From positions 1 through 21,141 of IMG/VR virus record IMGVR_UViG_3300048446_000038: a stretch of DNA of 21,141 nt; one strand, written 5' to 3'. A program made the position numbers and the translations under genes. The stretch comes from a virus. How positions within the stretch are numbered: the first letter of the stretch is position 1; every line of letters starts with the position of its first letter. The notes below the pieces were generated by a model, which saw nothing but the letters and a program-made list of their open reading frames with translations, had not been told where the DNA came from and made no database searches. This document shows positions 1,391 through 19,295 of the stretch, piece by piece.

Positions 1391-2479
1391 ATGGCAGTAT
1401 TAACAAGCTCTACATTAGATTTATATTGTTGGTCTGGAAGATGGAGTTCAGTGCCATCTCAACCTCAATACGTTATTAGAAAAACAAATCCTGACACAAA
1501 TAACTTAATACGTTTTGAAATATCAGAATTAATACAAGATTACATTGATGTTGTATTTGATAATGATTATACAATTAGTGGTGGAGGTCTTTCTAATATA
1601 AAATCTACTTGTTGGTTTTATTATATAAAAAGAAATACATACAGTGATAGAGATGCACAGGAATTTTATGGGTATGGAATAGGAACAAAAGGTTATACTT
1701 ACTTTGAAGATGGAATAAATTCTGTTCTATCAACATCAAGATTATTCTCTAACAATTATATTTATTTACCAGAAAACTCTAGTATTAATATACCTATATA
1801 TGTTGGACCTGGTGGAGTTAAATTTATTAGATTCTTTAAAATAGATTCACTGGGAAATGAAACGGTAGCTCAAACACAAAGTTTTGATTTATTACTAGAC
1901 ACACCAACTTCTGAAGATTCAAACTCTTATATTAGATATGCTTCTTCTAACATTCAAGCTAGTAAAATAGAAATAGAATCAGTTAATACATCCTCTTCAA
2001 CATATTCGGCTGCAACAGGAACAGCAATAGAGACAGTTTATCCTATTTATACTTGTGAACCTAAATACACTAACTATAAAGTGTCATTTATAAATAAATT
2101 TGGTGCAATACAAGACTTGTACTTTAACAAAAAAAGAACAGATAATTTAAATGTAAAAAGGGATGACTATAATACAAGCACAATATCTTCATCATCTTCA
2201 GGTGTAAGTTATAATACTTACGACGCAACCAACATAGTTCAAGATGTTGCTGCAACAAAATCTCTTACATTAAACACAGGATTCTTAAAAGAAGAGTATA
2301 ATGAAATAATGAGACAGTTATTTCAGTCAGAAAATGTATGGGTTAGAGAAAACAATCAAACATTACCTATAAAAATTAAAGATAGTAGTTTTACTTATAA
2401 AACACATCTAAACGACAAACTTGTAAATTATACTGTTCAATTTGAATATGCTTTTGATGGTATTAACAACATTAGATAA
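1391..2479 (+). CDS. Putative tail structural protein (362 aa)
   Basis: The ATG follows an A-rich leader (AAAGAAAAGAT) and the frame ends in a TAATG overlap with the next tail gene, implying translational coupling. No signal peptide, membrane segment or catalytic motif is visible. The sequence is rich in Tyr, Ser, Asn and Thr with alternating hydrophobic stretches, as in beta-rich virion proteins. The N-terminal part carries FEISELIQDYI, and the end has a helix (LKEEYNEIMRQLFQSENVWV) followed by beta strands ending in NYTVQFEYAFDGINNIR. From memory, this helix-plus-strand ending resembles structural proteins next to the tail hub of other Bacteroidota phages. Its place between an adhesin-like gene and the hub/tip gene suggests a distal tail or baseplate part. 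The exact role is not recognised. Confidence 0.7.
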   Translation: MAVLTSSTLDLYCWSGRWSSVPSQPQYVIRKTNPDTNNLIRFEISELIQDYIDVVFDNDYTISGGGLSNIKSTCWFYYIKRNTYSDRDAQEFYGYGIGTKGYTYFEDGINSVLSTSRLFSNNYIYLPENSSINIPIYVGPGGVKFIRFFKIDSLGNETVAQTQSFDLLLDTPTSEDSNSYIRYASSNIQASKIEIESVNTSSSTYSAATGTAIETVYPIYTCEPKYTNYKVSFINKFGAIQDLYFNKKRTDNLNVKRDDYNTSTISSSSSGVSYNTYDATNIVQDVAATKSLTLNTGFLKEEYNEIMRQLFQSENVWVRENNQTLPIKIKDSSFTYKTHLNDKLVNYTVQFEYAFDGINNIR

Positions 2480-5247
2480 TGAACCAAAAAGTACAGTTAT
2501 TTATAGAGAATCAAGAAGTTGATATATTTCAGGATAATTCAATTAATATTGTATCATCAATAAAAGATTATAGAGAACCTGATAAATTATTTACTGATTA
2601 TTCTCAAAACTTTAATCTTCCTGCTACTACAAGAAACAATAAAATATTTAAACATTATTACGATTATGATATAGGAGATGGAGGTTTTGATGCAAGAAAG
2701 TCAAAAGAAGCAAGAATAGAAATAAACGATAGACCATTTAGAGAAGGATATATAGTTCTTGAAAGTGTAGATTTAAAATACAATAAGCCTTCAACATATA
2801 AGGTTACTTTCTTTGGTGGATTAAGATTATTAAAAGAGTTATTCCAGGATTTAAAACTATCTGATTTAACATGGCTAGATAATTTTAATATAACAAATCA
2901 AGGTTACGATGCTTCAAAAACAGATACTTTTTATAATTATTTAACTACATCTAAAGATGTAACAATAGATTCTACAACATATACACAACCAGTTGTAGTT
3001 CCTTTAATATCTAACAAAGATAGATTGTATTATAACTCTAATACTGCTTATTATGGAGTTTTAGAAGATGGTAATTTATATTATGATTCTAATGACTACC
3101 CATTAAATAGCAAAAAGAATGGAGTAAACTGGCAGAACTTAAAACCAGGTATTAGAATAGACAATATAATAAGAGCTGTAGAAAAACTAATTAATGCTAA
3201 TACAGAAACTCCAAGTATAGAGTTTTCTAATGATTTCTTTAATTCATCTAATTTAGATTATTACAATCTTTATATGTGGCTTAATAAAGATGTAGATGAG
3301 GAAAAAGATATAATTACACAAAGAAAAATAATAGATGTATTTAATAACGGTGTAAGTAGAATATACAGGACTTATGGAGGTGGGACCATTCAAGAACAAG
3401 TTATGTCTATTGTATCTACTGATGATGAAGGAAATACTAGTGGACAAACCTCTGATAGGTTTATATTATCTGGAGTTCAAGATGAAAGTGTAGATAGTGT
3501 AGAATGTAGAGTAAGTTTAATTAGTTCAAATACTACTGACAAGTTTGATTTACAATTAATGAAAGATGGTGTAGTTATAAGCACAATAAATCAAGAGGTT
3601 CAAACAGGTGGTAATTCTTATTTAAGTTTTTATCTAGAGCAAGATGGTAAATATCAATTTAGACTACAAACAAAGTCAGATGTAAATATAAATTTTGATA
3701 GTGGTTTTAAAGTTCAGTTTGTTATAAGAGCTGTAAGTGATAGAGATAGCTTTAACGATGTAACAATATTTGGTGGAGCATTAAACATATTAGCTAATGT
3801 AGGTGAATTTTCTATGACAGAAAATATGCCTGATATGACAATTTTAGAGTTTCTATCAGGAATATTTAAAATGTTTAATTTAGTGTGTTATGTACAAAGT
3901 GATATAAATGCTACTTATGCAAATTATTCTGCAAACATCACAAACGTCAAAACAATTAGAGTAATGACATTTGATGCTTATTACGCATCTTCTAATGCAG
4001 AGCTTGACATAACAGACAAAATAGACATTTCATCAGCATCAGTTCATAGACAAGTTCCTTATACTAAAATAGAATTTAAGTATGAAGATACTCAAGCTGT
4101 TCTTGCAGAACAACATCTATCTGAACTTGGTCAAGAATGGGGTGGAGAAAAATGGGAGATAACAGAGTCAAGAGCTGAAAAGAAATATGAAATTATCCCT
4201 CCTTTTGCACACATGAAGTTTGAAAGATTGTATGATGAGAATGGAGATACTTTATCAGGGGTTCAGGTTGGTTATAGTATAAAAAGAAGTAGTACAAGTA
4301 AAGGAGAATATAAAGATGAGAAGTATAATCCACATTATGGAAAGCCTGTTTTATTCTATCCATATTTAGCACAAAACTCAACAACCATACCTTATCTATA
4401 TAAAACAAACGTCAATACTTATGAAGCTGAACCTATAGATGATTATTTCATTCCACTAAATTCAGTAGATATAAATGTATCTCAATCTAAACACTTTGGA
4501 GAAGAAGTAGATGAATATAGAGCTTTTGATGCAGAGAATCAAAGTAATGTAAATAATTTATTTAATATATATTATAAAAACTATATAACACACTTATTTG
4601 ACCAAAGGTCTAGGATAACAAAATTAAAAGCAAATTTAACTAATGCTTTCCTGTCTAAATATTCTTTAGCTGATAAAATAAGAGTATCAGGTAAAACTTA
4701 TAGTATAAATAAAATAAATGTAAACTTAATAAACGGTAAAGCTGATTTAGAATTACAAAGATATTATTCTATTAAATCATTTGCTTGTTTAAGTGATAAT
4801 ATAGAAGTAGATGTAGAGTTGACATCAGCTGGTAATTTATATGTATTTGATAATAAATTTGGTGCATATCAAATGGGTGAAGGTGTTTATGTATTTAATG
4901 ATGTACCTTCAGGTCATCCTATAGCATTCTACAACTTTGGTAAAACAAATGAATTATCTTATACAGGAACAGTTAATGGAGGAACTAAAACAGGACAAGA
5001 TGGTAATACTTATACATATTATTCTGGTGATGTAACAGTAACAGTTAATGGTGACTTTGGAACTACTAGCTACGAATGTTATAATCACGGATATATGGGC
5101 GGTGAAAGTAATTTAACTTTTAATGCAGATTGTGAAGTAGATACTACACCTACTCCACCTCCTGTAACTGGAGATTTAAGAGTAGATGCAACGGACATTA
5201 CTGTAGATAATGCAATTATAACATCAGACCAAACTAATAGACAATGA
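2479..5247 (+). CDS. Tail tip/hub protein with C-terminal cupredoxin-like module (922 aa)
   Basis: The start shares a TAATG with the upstream gene and the stop shares an ATGA with the 48-codon gene. The N-terminal 150 residues carry LFTDYSQNFNLPAT and YKVTFFGGLRLLKELFQDL, which I associate with large tail-tip or hub proteins of Bacteroidota phages. Residues to about 765 are the main tail body, with no visible peptidase motif. Residues about 795-885 look like a separate module with all four type 1 copper ligand positions: His813 in GHPIAF, then Cys867, His870 and Met873 in YECYNHGYMGG. A proline-rich linker (TPTPPP) leads to a C-terminal repeat of period 7 (898-922) that is also found in the 55-residue gene at 14469. 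It lies directly upstream of the tape measure, where hub proteins usually map. The tail assignment is fairly secure; copper binding is inferred. Confidence 0.75.
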   Translation: MNQKVQLFIENQEVDIFQDNSINIVSSIKDYREPDKLFTDYSQNFNLPATTRNNKIFKHYYDYDIGDGGFDARKSKEARIEINDRPFREGYIVLESVDLKYNKPSTYKVTFFGGLRLLKELFQDLKLSDLTWLDNFNITNQGYDASKTDTFYNYLTTSKDVTIDSTTYTQPVVVPLISNKDRLYYNSNTAYYGVLEDGNLYYDSNDYPLNSKKNGVNWQNLKPGIRIDNIIRAVEKLINANTETPSIEFSNDFFNSSNLDYYNLYMWLNKDVDEEKDIITQRKIIDVFNNGVSRIYRTYGGGTIQEQVMSIVSTDDEGNTSGQTSDRFILSGVQDESVDSVECRVSLISSNTTDKFDLQLMKDGVVISTINQEVQTGGNSYLSFYLEQDGKYQFRLQTKSDVNINFDSGFKVQFVIRAVSDRDSFNDVTIFGGALNILANVGEFSMTENMPDMTILEFLSGIFKMFNLVCYVQSDINATYANYSANITNVKTIRVMTFDAYYASSNAELDITDKIDISSASVHRQVPYTKIEFKYEDTQAVLAEQHLSELGQEWGGEKWEITESRAEKKYEIIPPFAHMKFERLYDENGDTLSGVQVGYSIKRSSTSKGEYKDEKYNPHYGKPVLFYPYLAQNSTTIPYLYKTNVNTYEAEPIDDYFIPLNSVDINVSQSKHFGEEVDEYRAFDAENQSNVNNLFNIYYKNYITHLFDQRSRITKLKANLTNAFLSKYSLADKIRVSGKTYSINKINVNLINGKADLELQRYYSIKSFACLSDNIEVDVELTSAGNLYVFDNKFGAYQMGEGVYVFNDVPSGHPIAFYNFGKTNELSYTGTVNGGTKTGQDGNTYTYYSGDVTVTVNGDFGTTSYECYNHGYMGGESNLTFNADCEVDTTPTPPPVTGDLRVDATDITVDNAIITSDQTNRQ
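4861..5133 (+). other. Cupredoxin-like (type 1 copper site) domain within the tail protein
   Basis: This covers residues about 795-885 of the 922-residue tail protein. The visible motif is GHPIAF (His codon 4915-4917), then YECYNHGYMGG with Cys at 5077-5079, His at 5086-5088 and Met at 5095-5097. The Cys-x2-His-x2-Met spacing equals that of amicyanin (Cys92, His95, Met98), and the first His sits in a His-x-hydrophobic-x-Phe strand as in that family. The His-to-Cys distance is 54 residues, longer than in amicyanin (39). I recall HP...YYxCxxHxxMGG modules in marine cyanophage structural proteins. Copper binding is not shown. Confidence 0.55.
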
Positions 5248-5390
5248 TTAAATTAATAATAGAACTATTAAAGACAGATAACTTTTATGGAGTTAATCCT
5301 TATATAGACATTGCTAAAGGATGGTATAAAGCACCAGAAAATTGGAAAGAATTAAAACATCATGTAATTAGAAGATATTATGGAAGGTAA
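5244..5390 (+). CDS. Small conserved-looking protein between hub and tape measure (48 aa)
   Basis: ATG at 5244 overlaps the upstream stop (ATGA) and the frame ends at TAA 5388-5390, overlapping the tape-measure start by 11 bases. It begins MIKLIIELLKTDNF and ends HHVIRRYYGR; it is aromatic and basic, with a GWYKAPENWKELK segment. There is no membrane segment beyond a short hydrophobic N-terminus. The tight overlaps on both sides and absence of rival frames argue that it is real. In many long-tailed phages the genes just before the tape measure encode tail assembly chaperones; this position suggests a similar helper role, but its size and sequence do not prove it, and no frameshift product is evident. 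Confidence 0.65.
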   Translation: MIKLIIELLKTDNFYGVNPYIDIAKGWYKAPENWKELKHHVIRRYYGR

Positions 5391-7605
5391 AGAAATAATA
5401 ATTAATATAAAACTTACTGGAGACGGAGCTGTAGATGTTAAAAAGTTAAAACAAGCTCTTTCTGAATTTACTAAAGAGACAGAGAAGAATATAAATGTCA
5501 GGAAGAAAACTACCCAAGCAATAAAAGGAACAGAGAAGGCTTATCTAAATGAAATAAAAAGAATAAAACAAGAAAGAGCTGAAACTGCAAAAACATCAAA
5601 ACAATATAATTCTTATACAAAACAATTAATAGTTGTTGAGAATCAATTAAGAGAGTTAACAGAAGCAAGAAGAACTGATATTCAAGTTAATGCCGCTCAA
5701 ATTAGTAATCAAGGATTAGCGTCTGCTTCGTTAACTGAATTTGGTAGGTTAATTTCAGATGCTCCTTTTGGAATTATAGGTATGACTAACAACATATCTC
5801 AACTTGGTTCACAATTAGGAACTTTATCAAGAAAAACAGGAAGTGCAAAAGCTTCTTTTGATTTACTTATAACTCAACTTAAATCTGGTGGAGCTTTAAT
5901 TTTAGGTTTTCAGATACTTATTTCTTTAATAACCTTGTATAGAGATGAAATAACAGATTTTATAAAAGGTACGAACACAGCTGCTGCTAAATTAAAAGAG
6001 TTAAGAAAAGAAATAGAAGAAGCAAATAAAAGTTTTGATGCTGAAGGAGCCAAGCTTATGATTCTTAATAATATTATAAATGATAATAGTGCTAGTAGAG
6101 AGGCACAAATAGCTGCTGCAAATGAGTTGGCAAGTGTTTTACCAGACTTAACACTTAAAGAAATTCAAAATAAAAATGCGGTTGAGGATAACACGTTAGC
6201 TATTGAGGATTATATAACACAACAAAAAGCAAGAGCAGAAATGGATGCTATTTTAGATGCTAATGCAGATATATTTGCTAAAAAAGCCAAGATAAGAGCA
6301 ATAGAATCCATGGAAGAAGGAGAAGAAAAAGAAGCTGCTTTAATAAAGTTTATAAAAGCTAATGATTCTTTTCTATTAAGAATGGAAGCTGGTATGCGTT
6401 CTTCGATTCAGTCTGGTGGATTAGGAAGACTACCAGGTGTAGCAAAAGCAAGAGGTTTCTTTTCTGCAGTTATAGGTTCAAATGATTCAGAAAGAAAACA
6501 AATATTGAATGAAATAACAAAAGATGTTGATAAAACTGCATCAGAAATAACAACTATTCTAACTGATTTACAAAAACAAATTACACAATCTGCTGGTTCT
6601 GGAGACGGAGACGGAAATGGTGCAGATGTTATTGAAGGAAGTATAAAAGCTTTACAAAACCAAATATCAGCATTAAAAAAATTAAGAGATGAAACATCTA
6701 CTACTGGGGATGAATATACTGAATTTACATTAAAAATAGAAAAGCTTCAAGATGAGCTAAAAGAACTTCAAGGTATAATGGATAGACCGCAAGTTGAATC
6801 TGTAAGTGCTTTTATAGCTGCTGAAGACACAAAATTAACAAAGTTCCTAGAAACCGAACTTGCAAAAAGAGAATCTGCTGAAGTAACAAGTGAAATATTA
6901 GCTCAAGGTGAACAAGATAGATTATTAGCTCAAGAAAAATTAGCTGATATGATAGTTAAACAAGCTAGTAAATTTGGACAAATACAATCACAAGCTTTTG
7001 ATGCACAAGTTAAAAGATTAGATACCGAAAGAGATATTATATTAAACAACGACAATCTTACATCTCAAGAGAAGGATAGACTATTGAAAGAAAATGATAA
7101 GCAGTCAAGAAAAATAAGAATTCAGCAAATAAAGTTTGAAAGAGATATGCACATGATAGAAATGTCTATGGAGCTAACTAAATTTGCTTTACAAGGAAAG
7201 ACGTTGTTGGCTGGAATTGCAGGTGATGCTGCTAAAAATACAGCTGATGCAACTGGCTCTATTGGTAAGTTTTTAAGTCAATTAGGCCCTATAGCTGGTC
7301 CTGTAGCTTATGCTGCAATGATAGGTGGTGTTATAGCACAAATAGTGACTGCAAGAAGAAAAGCAGAACAGCAAATAAAAGCATTATCAGGTCCTTTAGC
7401 TGGTGTAAGTTCAGGTGGTGGAGGTTCTTCTACTAGTGTACAAGCTCCTGCATTCAACGTAGTAGGTGCAACACAAACAAGTCAATTAGCTCAAACAATT
7501 GCTGGTTCAGAAGATAAACCATTAAGAGCTTATGTAGTAGCATCTGATGTATCAACAGCACAAGAACTTGAACGTAGTACGATAGAAGGTGCATCAATAG
7601 GATAA
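5380..7605 (+). CDS. Tail tape measure protein (741 aa)
   Basis: Tape measure proteins fill the tail tube, set its length and are ejected with the DNA. The start at 5380 overlaps the 48-residue gene. Residues 1-100 are Lys/Glu-rich and predicted helical or coiled-coil. Residues 119-139 carry LTEFGRLISDAPFGIIGMTN, a signature I associate with tape measures of Bacteroidota phages. A hydrophobic segment lies at about 169-187 and a second Gly/Ala-rich one at about 628-660 (GPIAGPVAYAAMIGG), which fits the membrane-interacting segments of this family. Long charged helical stretches (about 200-290 and 410-600) separate them. At about 0.15 nm per residue the length predicts a tail near 110 nm. It lies directly after the tail-tip genes, and the next gene begins a head module, an uncommon order. 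It has no visible lytic domain. Confidence 0.88.
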   Translation: MEGKEIIINIKLTGDGAVDVKKLKQALSEFTKETEKNINVRKKTTQAIKGTEKAYLNEIKRIKQERAETAKTSKQYNSYTKQLIVVENQLRELTEARRTDIQVNAAQISNQGLASASLTEFGRLISDAPFGIIGMTNNISQLGSQLGTLSRKTGSAKASFDLLITQLKSGGALILGFQILISLITLYRDEITDFIKGTNTAAAKLKELRKEIEEANKSFDAEGAKLMILNNIINDNSASREAQIAAANELASVLPDLTLKEIQNKNAVEDNTLAIEDYITQQKARAEMDAILDANADIFAKKAKIRAIESMEEGEEKEAALIKFIKANDSFLLRMEAGMRSSIQSGGLGRLPGVAKARGFFSAVIGSNDSERKQILNEITKDVDKTASEITTILTDLQKQITQSAGSGDGDGNGADVIEGSIKALQNQISALKKLRDETSTTGDEYTEFTLKIEKLQDELKELQGIMDRPQVESVSAFIAAEDTKLTKFLETELAKRESAEVTSEILAQGEQDRLLAQEKLADMIVKQASKFGQIQSQAFDAQVKRLDTERDIILNNDNLTSQEKDRLLKENDKQSRKIRIQQIKFERDMHMIEMSMELTKFALQGKTLLAGIAGDAAKNTADATGSIGKFLSQLGPIAGPVAYAAMIGGVIAQIVTARRKAEQQIKALSGPLAGVSSGGGGSSTSVQAPAFNVVGATQTSQLAQTIAGSEDKPLRAYVVASDVSTAQELERSTIEGASIG

Positions 7606-7639
7606 TAAAACAAAATAGACCTAGTAGGGTTATTTAATT

Positions 7640-8803
7640 ATGGAAAAGATAATAGAACTTATTATAGACGAAGAAAATGAGATTAGTGGTATTGAAGCTA
7701 TCTCTGTCGTTGAAAATCCAGCAATAGAAGAAGACTTTATTGCACTAAAAGAACATAAAGATATTAAACTTGCAGAAGTAGATGCAGAACAAAGGATTCT
7801 TATGGGTCCTGCACTTATACCTAACAAGAAGATATTTAGAAAAGGAGAAGAAGATGATTACTACATATACTTCTCTGAAGATACAGTTAGAAAAGCATCT
7901 GAATTATTCTTTATAAAAAGTAAACATCAGAACTCTACATTTGAACATTCATTTGAATTATCTGATATGTCAGTTGTAGAATCTTGGTTAATAGAAGACC
8001 CTAAAAATGATAAAGCATCAGCTTATGGTTTTGACCTACCAAAAGGAACTTGGATGGTATCAATGAAAGTATTAAATGATGATGTGTGGAAAGCAGTAAA
8101 AGAAGGAGAAGTAAAAGGATTTTCTATAGAAGGATATTTTGCTGATGGACTTGAAAGACCAAAAGAAAGCGTAGAAGAAAATGCTTGTGATGATTGTTTA
8201 AATGAATTGAACGCAGAATATGAACTAGCAGAAGTATTAGCGTCTTTAACTGAAGACGTAGAATTAGAATCTTATGGTGGTTATCCACAGTCTGCAAAGA
8301 ACAATGCAAAAAGAGGTATTGCTTTAAACGAAAAAGTAAACAATAAATGTGCAACTCAAGTTGGTAAAGTTAGAGCTAGACAGCTTGAGAGAGGAGAGAA
8401 ATTTACACTCTCTACATTAAAAAGAATATATTCTTATTTATCAAGAGCAGCTGCTTATTATGAGCCAGGTAACAATGAAGCTTGTGGTACTATTTCATAT
8501 TTATTATGGGGTGGTAAATCAATGCTTAACTGGACAACATCTAAACTAAAAGGACTTGATGCTATAGAAGCATCTTCAACAATTATAGATGGAAGAGCTG
8601 CCTATTCAACACAGGAAGAAGCAGAAAAAGCTGCTGAAGATATAGGTTGTTCAGGGTATCATACACACGAGTACGAAGGAGATGTGTGGTATATGCCTTG
8701 TGAGGAACACAATCTAAAAGCTCCTTGTCAAGATGGATATGAGCAAATAGGAATGAAAGATAAAGATGGTAGAAAGGTTCCTAATTGTGTTCCAATAAAA
8801 TGA
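7640..8803 (+). CDS. XkdF-like prohead protease with extra C-terminal domains (387 aa)
   Basis: Residues 1-170 match the XkdF-type phage serine protease pattern: GIEAISVVENPAIEEDF near the start, LIPNKKIFRK, a Phe-Glu-His around His103 and GFSIEGYF with the likely nucleophile Ser162. Such enzymes process scaffold and capsid during head maturation. The rest is unusual. Residues about 212-305 form a separate domain (YPQSAKNNAKRGIALNEK ... ACGTISYLLWGG). Residues about 313-357 are Cys/His-rich (IGCSGYHTHEYEG, YMPCEEH). The C-terminus ends in DGRKVPNCVPIK, a short motif I recall at the ends of several phage head proteins. The gene ends in an ATGA overlap with the next one and lies upstream of scaffold and capsid genes, consistent with a protease. 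The protease call is firm; the added domains have no known role that I can name. Confidence 0.82.
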   Translation: MEKIIELIIDEENEISGIEAISVVENPAIEEDFIALKEHKDIKLAEVDAEQRILMGPALIPNKKIFRKGEEDDYYIYFSEDTVRKASELFFIKSKHQNSTFEHSFELSDMSVVESWLIEDPKNDKASAYGFDLPKGTWMVSMKVLNDDVWKAVKEGEVKGFSIEGYFADGLERPKESVEENACDDCLNELNAEYELAEVLASLTEDVELESYGGYPQSAKNNAKRGIALNEKVNNKCATQVGKVRARQLERGEKFTLSTLKRIYSYLSRAAAYYEPGNNEACGTISYLLWGGKSMLNWTTSKLKGLDAIEASSTIIDGRAAYSTQEEAEKAAEDIGCSGYHTHEYEGDVWYMPCEEHNLKAPCQDGYEQIGMKDKDGRKVPNCVPIK

Positions 8804-9018
8804 TGAAAAGAAGAAAAAATGCAACATTAAGTTATTCTTCTCCAAGAAGTTCATCAAGAGCTTGTTTGTGTCCTGATGGTAGAACATATTCAATAAAGTG
8901 CTGTGATGGAACATTAGAAGCACAAGGAATAGGAAGCACGCATAAGACAAGTAATTATTTATTACAAGAAAATAGAGATTTAATATTACAAGAAGACAAC
9001 AGTAAAATAAAATTATAA
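8800..9018 (+). CDS. Small Cys-containing phage protein, CLCPDG/KCC type (72 aa)
   Basis: I chose ATG 8800, which overlaps the protease stop as ATGA; a second ATG follows at 8803, and an upstream in-frame TTG at 8785 is less likely. The protein starts MMKRRKN, has a Ser/Arg-rich stretch, then ACLCPDGRTYS followed by KCCDGTLEAQGIG, and an acidic, Gln/Leu-rich tail. The four clustered Cys residues could bind metal or form disulfides. From memory, similar short proteins occur in other Bacteroidota phages near head or fibre genes, but without a known function. The stop TAA overlaps the next start (TAATG). Coding is likely; the role is unknown. Confidence 0.7.
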   Translation: MMKRRKNATLSYSSPRSSSRACLCPDGRTYSIKCCDGTLEAQGIGSTHKTSNYLLQENRDLILQEDNSKIKL

Positions 9019-9497
9019 TGGCAGATAAAAAAATATCCGAATTAAGTTTAGTAGCAGCATCAGATTTAGATGGTTCAGAAGTAATAGCTATTGTTCATTC
9101 ATCAGAAACTAAAAAAACTACAATATCTAATTTAGAGAATCTAATAGTTACACATTTAGTATCAACTGACATTACGGTTATATCTGGAGGTAGTGATATA
9201 GATTTAAATGATTCTGCTTATGACAATGCAGAGATGATTAAATTAAGCTGGTCAGGTGGAAGTGATACAGTAGAGATAACTTTACCAGACGCAACAGCAA
9301 CAAAAAACTTAAATAGACAAATAAGACTAATAACAGACAGTTCATATACAACAAATACACACGCAGATTTAACACCAAGAAGTGGACAAACATTAGATGG
9401 TGAATCTACTCATTATAGAATTAATAAAGCGTATGAAGGTATAACGGTATGGTGTGATGGTACTGAATGGTTTATAATCCAAGCTAAAGCATCTTAA
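9018..9497 (+). CDS. Putative virion surface/fibre-like protein (159 aa)
   Basis: It starts in a TAATG overlap. The N-terminus MADKKISELSLVAASDLDGS is a form often seen at the start of phage fibre or appendage proteins, where a short helix precedes beta repeats. The middle is beta-rich with GGSDIDLND, and the end is GITVWCDGTEWFIIQAKAS, a terminal strand pair ending in Trp-x-Ile-x-Gln similar in layout to the end of the 177-residue fibre gene at 14648. There is no membrane segment or enzyme motif. Its position between protease and scaffold suggests a head decoration or fibre as alternatives. It is a structural protein by composition and context only. Confidence 0.6.
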   Translation: MADKKISELSLVAASDLDGSEVIAIVHSSETKKTTISNLENLIVTHLVSTDITVISGGSDIDLNDSAYDNAEMIKLSWSGGSDTVEITLPDATATKNLNRQIRLITDSSYTTNTHADLTPRSGQTLDGESTHYRINKAYEGITVWCDGTEWFIIQAKAS

Positions 9498-9546
9498 AAA
9501 TACAACAAAGTATTTAAAATCAGTAATAACTATAAATAAGAATCTT

Positions 9547-10047
9547 ATGAAAGCAAGTGAAATTGTAACTAAAATCAAAGATGTTCTTTTATCAACTAAT
9601 ACAGAGGAAGAAGTAACTACTCCTGAAGTTGAATTAAAAGAAGAAGCTCCTAAAGCTAAAAAGAAAGAAGCTAAAAAGGAGATTAAAGAAGAGGTTCCTG
9701 CTGAAAATGTAACTAAAGTAACATATTCTGCTGAAGAGCCTACTGACGAACTACAAGAGGAAAACTACGAGGAGAATCCAGTAGAAGAAGCTCCTGCTGT
9801 AGAGTACGCTACTAAAGACGAAGTGTCAGAACTTAAGTCTATGGTAGAGAAATTAAGAGGTATGATTGAAGCTAAAGAAGAAGCTAAAGAAGAAGTTCCA
9901 CAAGAATTATCTGCTGATGAGCCTGCTGAAGCAATTAATCATTCACCAGAAAACGAAGTAAGTGAAAAGGTTGGTGTTAGGTTTTCACCTAATGCAAACA
10001 AAAACACTACTTACAATAGAGTATTAAACGCAATAACTAATAATTAA
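9547..10047 (+). CDS. Probable scaffolding protein (166 aa)
   Basis: The protein is extremely Glu/Lys-rich, lacks Cys and Trp, and has long disordered stretches (KEEAPKAKKKEAKKEIKEE). A coiled-coil-like segment follows at about 88-117 (ATKDEVSELKSMVEKLRGM), and the C-terminus is more hydrophobic (TTYNRVLNAITNN), suited to docking on capsid subunits. It lies immediately upstream of the major capsid gene and two genes after the prohead protease, the standard place for a scaffold that guides capsid assembly and is then removed by proteolysis. The start ATG 9547 follows a 49-base AT-rich gap. Identification rests on composition and gene position, not on a sequence motif. Confidence 0.78.
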   Translation: MKASEIVTKIKDVLLSTNTEEEVTTPEVELKEEAPKAKKKEAKKEIKEEVPAENVTKVTYSAEEPTDELQEENYEENPVEEAPAVEYATKDEVSELKSMVEKLRGMIEAKEEAKEEVPQELSADEPAEAINHSPENEVSEKVGVRFSPNANKNTTYNRVLNAITNN

Positions 10048-10058
10048 ATTAATTTAAA

Positions 10059-11003
10059 ATGGCAAATAGTTTAAACACACCAATAACTACTACTTACGCT
10101 GGTGAATTTGCAGGAAAATATATTTCTGCAGCACTATTAAGTGGTAAAACTTTAGCAGAGGGGAATATTACAGTAGTACCTAATGTTAAATATAAGCAGG
10201 TAATGAAAAAAGCTGTTTCAGGAGACCTAGTAAAAGACGCAACTTGTGACTTTTCAGGTGAAGCAGATGTATTGACATTATCAGAAAGAATTTTAACACC
10301 TGAAGAGTTTCAAGTAAACCTTGAGTTGTGTAAAAAAGACTTTAGAAGTGACTGGGAAGCAGCTCAAATGGGATATTCTGCATTTGACAACTTGCCACCT
10401 TCTTTCTCTGACTTTTTAATTGCTCACGTAGCAGATAAAGTAGCTCAAAGAATGGAAACTAACATCTGGACAGGTACTAACGCAACATCAGGTCAATTTG
10501 ATGGATTCATCACTACTTTAGGTGCTGATGGTGACGTTAATGACGTAACAGGTACTGCTTCAACTGCAGCTAACATTATTACAGAGCTTGGTAAAATTGC
10601 TGATGCAATTCCAAGTGCTGTATATGGTTCAGAAGATATGACTATCTACTTACCTTCTAATATGTATAGAAACTACGTTAGAGCATTAGGTGGATTTGGT
10701 TCTGCTGGATTAGGTGCTGCTGGTACTGACAACAAAGGTACACAATGGTACAACATGGGTTCTGGTCTTCAGTTTGATGGTATTCAAATTGCACACGCAC
10801 CAGGATTATCAAGTAATGACGCTGTAGCAGCTGAAAAATCAAACTTATTCTTTGGAACAGGTCTATTATCTGACCAAAACGAAGTAAAAGTAATTGATAT
10901 GGCTGACCTAGACGGTTCTCAAAATGTGAGAGTTGTTATGAGATTTACTGCTGGTATTCAGCATGGAATTGGTGGTGATATCGTATTATACGCTACTGCA
11001 TAA
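10059..11003 (+). CDS. Major capsid protein (314 aa)
   Basis: The start ATG 10059 lies 11 bases after the scaffold stop in an A/T-rich leader. The protein is of typical length for an HK97-fold capsid subunit without a large delta domain. It begins NSLNTPITTTYAGEFAGKYI, carries LTPEEFQVNLELCKKDFRSDW at about 78-98 and a Gly/Ala-rich segment near 210-230, and ends in beta strands (HGIGGDIVLYATA). These sequences resemble, from memory, major capsid proteins of flavobacterial phages. Codon choice here is richer in C-ending codons (for example GAC, AAC, TAC) than in neighbouring genes, as expected for the most highly expressed gene. It is preceded by scaffold and protease genes and followed by a strong terminator. 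Confidence 0.85.
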   Translation: MANSLNTPITTTYAGEFAGKYISAALLSGKTLAEGNITVVPNVKYKQVMKKAVSGDLVKDATCDFSGEADVLTLSERILTPEEFQVNLELCKKDFRSDWEAAQMGYSAFDNLPPSFSDFLIAHVADKVAQRMETNIWTGTNATSGQFDGFITTLGADGDVNDVTGTASTAANIITELGKIADAIPSAVYGSEDMTIYLPSNMYRNYVRALGGFGSAGLGAAGTDNKGTQWYNMGSGLQFDGIQIAHAPGLSSNDAVAAEKSNLFFGTGLLSDQNEVKVIDMADLDGSQNVRVVMRFTAGIQHGIGGDIVLYATA

Positions 11004-15668: not shown

Positions 15669-18600
15669 ATGGCTGTAAATAAGAGATTATTACAGGGAGC
15701 TACAGGCGGTGGTGCATTAACTCCAAGTGAAAACTTTAAGGTAGTTACTTATACAGGTAATGGCGGAACTCAAGCTATAACAGGAGTAGGTTTCCAACCT
15801 GATATGATTTGGATTAAAGAAAGAAGTGCTGCAGATTCTCATAGATTACTTGATTCAACAAGAGGTGTAAATTCAAGATTATTTCCTGATTTAACTAATG
15901 CAGCATCTGTTGTAAGTGGTACATTAAATTCTTTTGATAGTGATGGTTTTACATTAGGTTCAGCACCTGAAGTAAATCAAAATGGTGAAACCTATGTAGC
16001 TTGGTGTTGGAAATCAGGAGGAGGAACTACAAGCAGTAATACTGATGGTAATATTACATCAACAGTACAAGCAAATACTGCTGCAGGATTTTCAATAGTT
16101 AAATATGATGGTGGGGATATAAGTTCAAGTACAAGTACTGTAGGTCACGGATTAGATTCTGCACCTGAATTAATAATAGTAAAAACTTATGAAACAGGTT
16201 TGACTGCAAGTGAATGGTTTGTTTATTCGCAAGAAGTGGGAAACACTAAAGAAGGAAATTTAAATCAAAATGCAGCATTTGGTACTGATACAGATAGATG
16301 GAATAGTACATCACCAACAAGTTCTGTGTTTACTTTAGGAAGTAGTTGGAGTGATTATCCTGCTTATTATGCAGGTGATACAATAGCTTATTGTTTTCAT
16401 TCAGTTGAGGGCTATTCAAAATTTGGTGGATACACAGGTAATGGTTCTGCAAATGGACCGATTGTAGAAACAGGATTTGAACCTGCGTTTTTGATGATTA
16501 AGAATACAAGTGACACAGGGGATTGGGTAATATTTGATAACAAAAGAAACTTAACTAATCCAAGAAACAATAGGTTGATGGCAAATTTAGATTCTGCTGA
16601 ATCAACAGGTAGTACAACAAGAGTTATTGATTTTTTGTCAAATGGATTTACAATAAAAAGCACTCATCAAGATATAAATGCTAATAATGATACATATATC
16701 TATATGGCATTTGCTGCAGACCCTGACACAGAAGCACCAACACTTGCAAGTAGTTTTAATATAGAAACTTATACTGGTACAGGTGCAGCAAGAAGTATTT
16801 CAGGTCTTGGATTTGGACCTGGACTTGTTTGGACAAAAGATAGAGGTAATGCTGAACAACATCAATTACACGATATAGTAAGAGGTGCAACAAAAGCAAT
16901 AGCTTCAAACCTTTCTAATGCCGAAGCAACAAGAGCAGATGGTTTAACTTCTTTTGATAGTGATGGGTTTAGTTTAGGTTCAGATGGTGCAGGTATAATT
17001 AATGATTCATCAAGAGGACCTTATGTTGCTTGGACTTGGAAAGCCGACGATAACGAACCGACTGCTTTCTTTAATAGCTCTGTAACAGGAGTATATAAAT
17101 TTGAAGATAATGTTAATGATGTAGCAGGGAATAACAATGGTGCTAATGGAGTTGATATAGCTTATACTTCAAGTGGTAAATTTAATAAAGCAGTAATTAG
17201 TAATGGAACAAATACTTCATTATCTCTTTCTCAAACACCACCAATGACAACTGCTTGGACTTTTTCTTTTTGGTTTTATGCAACTGAATCAGATTCTAAT
17301 ATTCGTATAATATTACAAACAGGAACAGGTTTTGCAATAGGATTAGAACTAAGCAAAATATTTATATTTACTGGTGGTTCAAATAGAGGTAGTGGAACAT
17401 CTATTAGCTTAAATACTTGGTATCATTATGCTGCAACTTATGATGGAACAAGTGTAAAAACATACCTTAATGGTTCTTTAGCAGAAACAATAACAACACT
17501 TACAGGTATGTCAGCAGGTAATTTAAAATTATTTGACCCACCTTATGGAAGTTGGGCTCACTATACAGGAAGATTAGACCAATTAAGAGTATATAGTACA
17601 GGTTTATCATCAACTCAAATTACTGCTTTATATAACGAATCAGCTTCAGATAATGACACAGTTGAATTTCCTGATGGATTACCAAATGGTCCAATTGCTT
17701 CAATAGTAAGTGCAAATGCTAATGCAGGATTTAGTATTGTTGATTGGCAACAAATACCTGCAACAGGAACTACAGTTCCACACGGATTATCAGCAGCACC
17801 AAATATGATTATTACTAAAGCACAAAATGATACTGATAATTGGTATGTTTATCATTCTGCACTAGGTACAGGTAAATTTATGTATCTTAATTTAACAAAT
17901 GCACAAGTAAGTAATGCAGGAGGATATTCAGCAGTTGGTGCTTCAACATTTACATCAAACTTATCTAACAATTCAGGAATTAATATGATTAGTTACTGTT
18001 TCCACGATATTGCAGGGTATCAAAAGTTTGGAAGTTATACTGGAAGTGGAAGTGCAGGTAATGCTCAAAATGTAGGATTCCAACCTGATTTTCTTATGTT
18101 TAGAAGATATAATAATTCTGATAATTGGGTAATAGTTGATACAAGAAGAACTGAAGATAAATATCTATTAGCAGACACTACTGATACAGAACAAAGTTTA
18201 GATATATTAGATTTTACTTCTACTGGTTGGACATTTAAAGGAAGTAGTATGAATAGCAGTAGTGATAATTACATCTACTGGGCAATAGCTAAAAATGTAC
18301 CAAGCAACACAACATTAGCGAATAGCTTTAAAGCAGTAACATATAATGGAAATGGTGGCACACAATCAATAACAGGGTTAGGTTTTAAACCTGATTTAGT
18401 TTGGATTAAACATAGAAACGAAGCAAATGACCACGTTGTTACAGACAGTATTAGAGGTAGAGGCCTTCTATATGCAAATGGTAATGACGAACAAAATCAA
18501 AATAGTCAATTAACATCTTTTGATAGTGACGGATTTAGTTTAGCATACAATACTGGACAAAATGTTAAGTTTAATAAATCAGGTGGTACTTATATAGCTT

Positions 18601-19295
18601 GGTGTTGGAAAGCAGGTAATACTTGGCAATCTAATATTGAAGGTTCAATACCAAGTATAACAAACACAAATACTGCAAATGGTTTCAGTATCGTTAAATA
18701 CACTGGAACTGGTGCAAATACAACAGTAGGGCATAATTTAGGGGCTGCACCTGAAATGGTTATAGTAAAAAACCTTTCTAATTCTCATAGTGGAAGTGCT
18801 CATTGGGCAATTTATCACACAAATTTAGGTGCAACAAAAGTTGTTTATTTAAATAGAACAAATGCAGCAGGAACATCAAGTGCTTTTTGGAATGATACCG
18901 CACCGTCATCAACAGTATTCAGTATAGGTACTGATAATGATGTAAATGTATCTGGAGAAGAATTTATTGCCTACTGTTTTAATTCAGTATCTGGATATAG
19001 CAAGATTGGAAGTTATACAGGAAATGGAAGTACACAAAGTATTACAGGATTAGGTTTTCAACCTGACTTTGTTATGATTAAGGGGGTTTCATCAGGAGGT
19101 GCAGGTGATTGGTATATTTTTGATTCAGAAAGAAATGCACAAAATTACTTAAGAGCAAATCTAAGCAATGCGGAAAGTACAGGAGCTTCATCTACATTAA
19201 CATCATTTGATAGTGATGGATTCAGTTTAGGTAATGATGGATTCTTAAATGGAAATACTTACACTTATATATATATGGCAATTAAAATGAATTAA
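15669..19295 (+). CDS. Giant modular tail fibre with three A-B-C cycles and an inserted LamG-like domain (1208 aa)
   Basis: It starts 2 bases after the previous stop. A short N-terminus (MAVNKRLLQGATGGGALTPS) precedes three cycles. Module A is at 22-117, 362-460 and 886-983, with GFxPDxxWIK, an RG pair, SFDSDGF and AWCWK. Module B is at 138-247, 686-783 and 1004-1108, with GFSIV, a GHGL-like turn, the W-V-Y/H-S strand and YCFH/N. Module C is at 248-350, 784-875 and 1109-1206, with SYTGNGS, GFxPDF and W-I-F/V-D. Module A resembles, from memory, the DUF7483-type domain of marine phage fibres. Between A2 and B2, residues about 468-660 form a LamG/concanavalin-like sandwich (AWTFSFWFYA, LNTWYHYAATYDG, GRLDQLRVY), a fold that often binds glycans. 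There is no peptidase or lyase motif. Receptor binding is inferred. Confidence 0.83.
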   Translation: MAVNKRLLQGATGGGALTPSENFKVVTYTGNGGTQAITGVGFQPDMIWIKERSAADSHRLLDSTRGVNSRLFPDLTNAASVVSGTLNSFDSDGFTLGSAPEVNQNGETYVAWCWKSGGGTTSSNTDGNITSTVQANTAAGFSIVKYDGGDISSSTSTVGHGLDSAPELIIVKTYETGLTASEWFVYSQEVGNTKEGNLNQNAAFGTDTDRWNSTSPTSSVFTLGSSWSDYPAYYAGDTIAYCFHSVEGYSKFGGYTGNGSANGPIVETGFEPAFLMIKNTSDTGDWVIFDNKRNLTNPRNNRLMANLDSAESTGSTTRVIDFLSNGFTIKSTHQDINANNDTYIYMAFAADPDTEAPTLASSFNIETYTGTGAARSISGLGFGPGLVWTKDRGNAEQHQLHDIVRGATKAIASNLSNAEATRADGLTSFDSDGFSLGSDGAGIINDSSRGPYVAWTWKADDNEPTAFFNSSVTGVYKFEDNVNDVAGNNNGANGVDIAYTSSGKFNKAVISNGTNTSLSLSQTPPMTTAWTFSFWFYATESDSNIRIILQTGTGFAIGLELSKIFIFTGGSNRGSGTSISLNTWYHYAATYDGTSVKTYLNGSLAETITTLTGMSAGNLKLFDPPYGSWAHYTGRLDQLRVYSTGLSSTQITALYNESASDNDTVEFPDGLPNGPIASIVSANANAGFSIVDWQQIPATGTTVPHGLSAAPNMIITKAQNDTDNWYVYHSALGTGKFMYLNLTNAQVSNAGGYSAVGASTFTSNLSNNSGINMISYCFHDIAGYQKFGSYTGSGSAGNAQNVGFQPDFLMFRRYNNSDNWVIVDTRRTEDKYLLADTTDTEQSLDILDFTSTGWTFKGSSMNSSSDNYIYWAIAKNVPSNTTLANSFKAVTYNGNGGTQSITGLGFKPDLVWIKHRNEANDHVVTDSIRGRGLLYANGNDEQNQNSQLTSFDSDGFSLAYNTGQNVKFNKSGGTYIAWCWKAGNTWQSNIEGSIPSITNTNTANGFSIVKYTGTGANTTVGHNLGAAPEMVIVKNLSNSHSGSAHWAIYHTNLGATKVVYLNRTNAAGTSSAFWNDTAPSSTVFSIGTDNDVNVSGEEFIAYCFNSVSGYSKIGSYTGNGSTQSITGLGFQPDFVMIKGVSSGGAGDWYIFDSERNAQNYLRANLSNAESTGASSTLTSFDSDGFSLGNDGFLNGNTYTYIYMAIKMN
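15732..19286 (+). repeat. Three tandem A-B-C module cycles in the fibre gene
   Basis: Cycle 1 spans 15732-16718, cycle 2 16752-18293 and cycle 3 18324-19286. DNA identity persists in parts: CTTTTGATAGTGATGG occurs at 15931 and 16951 (offset 1020 bases, exactly 340 codons), with one- or two-base variants at 18517 and 19204. Cycle 2 is longer because of the LamG-like insertion. Confidence 0.8.
17070..17648 (+). other. LamG/concanavalin-like domain inserted in the fibre
   Basis: Residues about 468-660 of the fibre. Visible LamG_3-like marks are VYKFEDNVNDVAGNNNG at the start, AWTFSFWFYATES, LNTWYHYAATYDGTSVKTYL and GRLDQLRVYSTGLSSTQI near the end. The sequence resumes with NGPIASIVSANANAGFSIV, equivalent to the A-to-B linker of cycles 1 and 3, so the domain sits at the module junction. 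Confidence 0.75.

Follow-up and report, generated by a model that had tools for sequence, protein, structure and literature searches.

The tail-tip protein of a marine tailed phage probably bears a cupredoxin-like domain in which all ligands of a type-1 copper site are present; on the hub, it would serve as a copper-fixed, optional attachment module loaded after virion release. The domain lies in a 21,141-base IMG/VR virus record, a tailed-phage fragment that is called the window here. The features of the protein are as follows.

2479-5247, plus strand: predicted tail-tip hub protein with a C-terminal cupredoxin-like domain, 922 aa (ORF, PHROG match, full-length model and fold matches)
2479-4776, plus strand: predicted hub body, aa 1-766, of gp27 / Mu gp44 / VgrG / T5-tip type (VIA-align Z 11-12.6 to phage and injection-system hubs; homologues without the domain stop here)
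3316-3735, plus strand: predicted TNF/C1q-like jelly-roll insert in the hub, aa 280-419 (VIA-align Z 6.4-7.6 over ~100-108 residues)
4786-5133, plus strand: cupredoxin-like domain, aa 770-885 (AlphaFold2 pLDDT 94.4; Foldseek and VIA matches; 63 viral relatives)
4786-4788, plus strand: C770, first Cys of a predicted disulfide pair (invariant in 26 domains selected without the motif; co-occurs with C885)
4915-4917, plus strand: H813, predicted copper ligand 1 (His-Pro), in GHPIAF (invariant, 71/71)
5077-5079, plus strand: C867, predicted copper ligand 2, in YECYNHGYMGG (invariant, 71/71)
5086-5088, plus strand: H870, predicted copper ligand 3, in YECYNHGYMGG (invariant, 71/71)
5095-5097, plus strand: M873, predicted axial copper ligand, in YECYNHGYMGG (invariant, 71/71)
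5131-5133, plus strand: C885, second Cys of the predicted disulfide pair (conservation; co-occurrence with C770)
5143-5172, plus strand: proline-rich linker TTPTPPPVTG, aa 889-898 (sequence; also in relatives)
5176-5244, plus strand: conserved C-terminal peptide LRVDATDITVDNAIITSDQTNRQ, aa 900-922 (kept in relatives)

The portal encoded in the window is 34% identical over 99% of its length to that of the flavobacterial phage P12024S of Nonlabens. The 922-aa protein is 30% identical, over 76% of the query, to gene 45 of P12024S, the sole source of matches to this protein among phage isolates, and it matches phrog_38559, a family labelled function unknown (E 2.8e-49). Our best reading is a siphovirus of a flavobacterial host, with the module at the distal tail tip. 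In the full-length model (pLDDT 72.6), aa 1 to ~766 match the hubs of Haloferax virus HFTV1, phiCD508, cyanophage A-1(L), Agrobacterium phage Milano, Mu gp44, VgrG and the T5 tip (VIA-align Z up to 12.6). These hub matches reach Z 11-12.6, against Z below 8 for unrelated proteins, and the body is thus predicted to fold as a tail-tip hub of the gp27/VgrG/T5-tip type. The cupredoxin-like domain begins at aa 770, directly past the hub body, and is followed by the proline-rich linker, which is the order proposed by a sequence-only reading of this DNA. The exposure of the domain, which that reading deduced from this order, is supported by the predicted hub fold of the remaining protein.

The C-terminal 23 residues of the window protein (LRVDATDITVDNAIIT..., 5176-5244, plus strand) are similar to the C-terminus encoded by P12024S gene 45 (KFDSTTITFDNTITT) despite a differing preceding domain, and are perhaps a docking peptide. 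Elsewhere on the plus strand, the window encodes a Cys-rich repeat protein (2-1342; 18 Cys in 446 aa) with three repeats of ~80-90 aa, each ending in CxxC (CEEC, CTTC and CATC at aa 170, 261 and 339), which is possibly metal-binding or disulfide-rich. A 1208-aa fibre-like protein (15669-19295) is built from a laminin-G-like domain and four stretches of DUF7483.

The four putative ligands, H813, C867, H870 and M873, stand exactly where the sequence-only reading had placed them (window 4915-5097), and the C-x2-H-x2-M spacing that it likened to amicyanin agrees with CTPHPFM of amicyanin in the PDB. It had set the domain at 4861-5133; the end stands, while the start lies further upstream, with the domain running from C770 to C885 (4786-5133). 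C-x2-H-x2-M occurs once in the window when all ORFs of at least 60 aa in six frames are considered. The ligands follow the order His, Cys, His, Met, the last three within the loop before the final strand. In a set of 34 homologous sequences, C770 and C885 are either both present or both absent, as expected if a disulfide links the two ends of the domain. The pair is absent from L052 and L064-L066, and L058 has a Cys further upstream.

Structure prediction followed by a Foldseek search, the check that had been suggested for this site, gave a confident all-beta model of the domain (AlphaFold2 pLDDT 94.4, pTM 0.88), and 49 of the 50 PDB matches listed are copper cupredoxins, including CotA laccase, bilirubin oxidase, pseudoazurin, CueO, amicyanin and plastocyanin. 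The Foldseek E-values are modest, 0.005 and up; pseudoazurin matches at a Foldseek probability of 0.98. VIA-align superposed the model on copper nitrite reductase and laccases with Z 6-7 and 3.1-3.5 A over ~94 residues. These results point to a cupredoxin-type Greek-key beta-sandwich. Among viral predicted structures, the best matches are an unnamed protein (TM 0.88), an Aureococcus virus protein and proteins of cyanophages S-TIM5 and MED4-213, and a 'blue type 1 copper protein' of Fadolivirus ranks lower. The non-copper protein SO1698 ties with the copper proteins in VIA-align (Z 6-7), and the fold alone would therefore not decide for a copper site.

More telling is the conservation of the ligands. 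A search with the domain identified 63 viral loci, and all four ligands are kept throughout an alignment of 31 viral relatives, down to 43% identity to the window. One seed of that search was ECYNHGYM, which may bias the ligand invariance, and homologues were therefore collected again using aa 1-300 only. In this set, 29 of 34 homologues have the domain with all four ligands and the other five (L096, L099, L100, L102 and L104) lack the entire domain, the protein stopping at the hub end; the motif was not found in same-strand ORFs of at least 100 aa at these five loci. No case of a retained domain with a lost ligand was found among the 34. The 26 distinct domains selected in this way are 55-99% identical, and their ligand His codons vary synonymously. 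An alignment of 71 relatives from two subfamilies has no invariant columns other than the first His, the Pro that follows it, the Cys, the second His and the Met; this set includes microbial (L064-L066) and sister-subfamily sequences, which were found partly via motif patterns or by eye, so that their invariance is partly a matter of selection. The domain is an optional module of the hub protein. In P12024S gene 45, a BACON-like domain (from the record annotation; its Pfam score was below the cut-off here) occupies the cupredoxin slot, and together with the similar last peptide this makes the slot look like an exchangeable cassette.

The motif might instead have arisen by chance in a generic Ig-like tail domain. 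Ig-like sandwiches are abundant in tail proteins, and curated cupredoxin models give no match: neither PF00127 nor PF13473 (Cupredoxin_1) matched the window protein or 31 relatives at E up to 1. However, when the 922-aa protein was shuffled 20,000 times, H-x(40-70)-C-x2-H-x2-M turned up in just 4 of the results, the Foldseek matches listed are specific for copper proteins, and the His residues are fixed where their codons differ. Ligand invariance and the shuffle test largely refute a chance origin, which we regard as very improbable.

The sister domain, with the pattern HPF...YYYC-x2-H-x2-MGG, provides a link to known cupredoxins. It occurs on tail proteins of pelagiphages and cyanophages, among them a T4-like cyanophage gp9 (Syn33, with Pfam T4_gp9_10_N in the same protein), a P-TIM68 fibre-like protein and a T7-type tail fibre. 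These carriers bear out the remark in the sequence-only reading that similar motifs occur in marine phage structural proteins. At least 553 viral stretches were confirmed, and the sister domain is apparently far more abundant than the type in the window. The window domain matches the sister profile at 97% with a score of 61.6, compared with a maximum of 23.9 in 100 column shuffles, and the sister profile matches a canonical set (PF00127 hits, amicyanin and plastocyanin) at 45.1, compared with a shuffle maximum of 17.6; the ligands are aligned in both comparisons. Compared directly with the canonical set, the window subfamily profile scored at noise level, and the canonical link is therefore made via the sister domain. 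With the motif columns masked, the domain-sister score was 28.4 versus 20.0 for shuffles, over only 22 columns, and the sister-canonical score dropped to noise. At the sequence level, the argument for shared ancestry with canonical cupredoxins therefore rests on the motif, and the predicted fold lends it independent support. Weak PDB matches of the sister profile include plastocyanin (E 0.36), collinear over the domain.

Other searches returned little. TIGR02657 (amicyanin equivalog) did not match the domain, and NCBIfam gave no cupredoxin match. With the domain alone as query, PHROGs gave weak tail-fibre matches and no cupredoxin family, a PDB sequence search gave nothing relevant, and phage isolates gave weak matches, the best to a tail fibre of an uncultured phage. 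We regard the domain as a new family of cupredoxin type on virions, outside PF00127, PF13473 and the amicyanin equivalog. Taken together, the fold, the ligand invariance in two subfamilies and the chain of profiles support well the earlier proposal of a cupredoxin-like site on a tail protein.

A second alternative accepts the cupredoxin fold and holds that the H/C/H/M cluster binds Zn or Cu(I) only, or forms a hydrogen-bonded core, in a structural spacer or sugar-binding type of module lacking type-1 copper chemistry. The tie with SO1698 is in its favor, as are the frequency of beta-sandwich binding modules in tail proteins, the BACON-like domain of P12024S in the same slot and the scarcity of free copper at the virion assembly site. 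Nevertheless, apart from one Pro, no side chains are invariant in the two subfamilies except those of His-Cys-His-Met, in exact type-1 order and spacing, and the structural matches are dominated by copper proteins. This alternative seems unlikely to us, but it is the one we take most seriously.

The reading that we prefer is a copper-fixed attachment module. H813, C867, H870 and M873 would form a full type-1 set holding one copper ion, and a C770-C885 disulfide would close a domain of ~116 folded residues. Hubs of the gp27/VgrG type are trimers, which suggests about three copies of the domain below the tail tip. Virions are assembled in a reducing cytoplasm poor in free copper, so that the likeliest time for completing the disulfide and the copper site would be after lysis, either in oxic seawater or at the surface of the host. 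Once bound, copper may fix the ligand loops into a rigid exposed face, which could act as an optional contact module in adsorption. The attachment role is suggested by the position of the module and by domain exchange; given that copper binds, we put its chances at about even. Its optional nature, its replacement by a different binding-type domain in a cultured relative and its recurrence on other tail-end proteins fit an accessory attachment role better than electron transport or a function in the ejection machinery.

Known blue-copper domains serve in electron transfer or belong to oxidases. In a further alternative, the domain itself works in electron transfer or redox sensing, and a change of copper oxidation state on host contact triggers a change at the tail tip; its ligand set is that of known electron-transfer proteins. 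However, no redox partner or enzyme is encoded adjacent to it in the window, and hubs lacking the domain occur and presumably work, which argues that the domain is not part of a required trigger. We consider this role improbable. Of the roles offered in the sequence-only reading, redox sensing gained no support here, and adhesion gained indirect support. An acquired host electron-transfer gene was ruled out, the domain being fused in frame to the hub.

The window-type domain also occurs within a crass-like protein of 612-617 aa in six viruses (L046-L051), one of which (L049) was scanned and matched the C-terminal domain of the crassvirus muzzle at E 8e-16. The muzzle forms the tail end in phage crAss001 (PMC10172136). 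In L046, the genes neighbouring the domain protein look like cellular-type enzymes. A 118-kb viral contig, apparently from a giant virus infecting a eukaryote (L058), encodes a 2701-aa protein (2388-10493) that contains the domain at least twice, together with a cyclophilin domain and PPPSPPPAPP linkers. Outside viruses, the same domain is found in surface proteins of marine Euryarchaeota (L064 and L068) whose N-terminus is that of an archaeal type IV pilin; the C-terminal end of L064 is a classical amicyanin-like cupredoxin that matches TIGR02657 below the cut-off. In two contigs from marine Chloroflexi and Euryarchaeota MAGs (L067 and L068), a sister-type domain is nested in a first-type domain, between the first His and the Cys.

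A wider hypothesis is possible, if rather doubtful: type-1 copper domains on host-contacting virion ends may be a widespread, unrecognised trait of marine viruses, spanning siphovirus hubs, crass-like proteins, T4-like gp9, T7-like fibres and giant viruses, with copper taken up after release for attachment and forming a colloidal copper ligand pool in seawater. If the site in the window binds copper, the tail tips of some common marine phages hold copper tightly, with implications for host recognition, for the stability of virions in oxic water and for the composition of organic copper ligands in the ocean. The prediction is sharp: one domain of ~120 residues, four ligands and a visible colour. 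We found no report in the open-access literature searched of cupredoxin domains, including this one, as parts of phage virions, although absence there is weak evidence.

Compared with T4 gp27, Mu gp44, VgrG and the T5 tip protein, the window protein shares the predicted hub fold over aa 1-766 and adds the TNF/C1q-like insert and the C-terminal cupredoxin-like domain. P12024S gene 45 is the same hub protein with a similar C-terminal peptide, but has a BACON-like domain where the window protein has the cupredoxin-like one. The sister domain has the same invariant ligands and is likewise found on tail proteins, whereas its loop lengths differ and it lacks the terminal Cys pair; the records inspected assign it no function.

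Amicyanin, plastocyanin and pseudoazurin have the same ligand set and order, His...Cys-x2-His-x2-Met, and the short ligand loop of the window domain is identical to that of amicyanin. In contrast to these proteins, the window domain has Pro where Asn, Thr or Ser is usual after the first His, is fused to a virion hub, has a terminal Cys pair and is ~20 residues longer. CotA laccase and the type-1 domain of CueO gave the best Foldseek E-values and share His-Pro at ligand 1 with the window domain. In multicopper oxidases, the His-Pro of the first ligand lies within an HPxHxH motif, whereas HPIAF of the window protein has no further trinuclear-centre His. The trinuclear-centre motifs HPxHxH and HCH are absent from the window protein, which has HPIAF and ECYNH only, and its cupredoxin-like region is a single domain and thus no oxidase.

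Iron-binding tail fibres have been described in which HxH pairs hold iron within a fibre trimer, as in T4 gp37 ('Trojan horse' hypothesis, PMC11705849). The window protein differs in that its predicted site is a single-domain Cys/His/Met site and not an HxH fibre trimer; the HxH motif was not found in the 922-aa sequence. In both systems, a metal site is proposed at the host-contacting end of the tail, and if the attachment reading is true, the module described here would be a copper counterpart to the iron-based idea.
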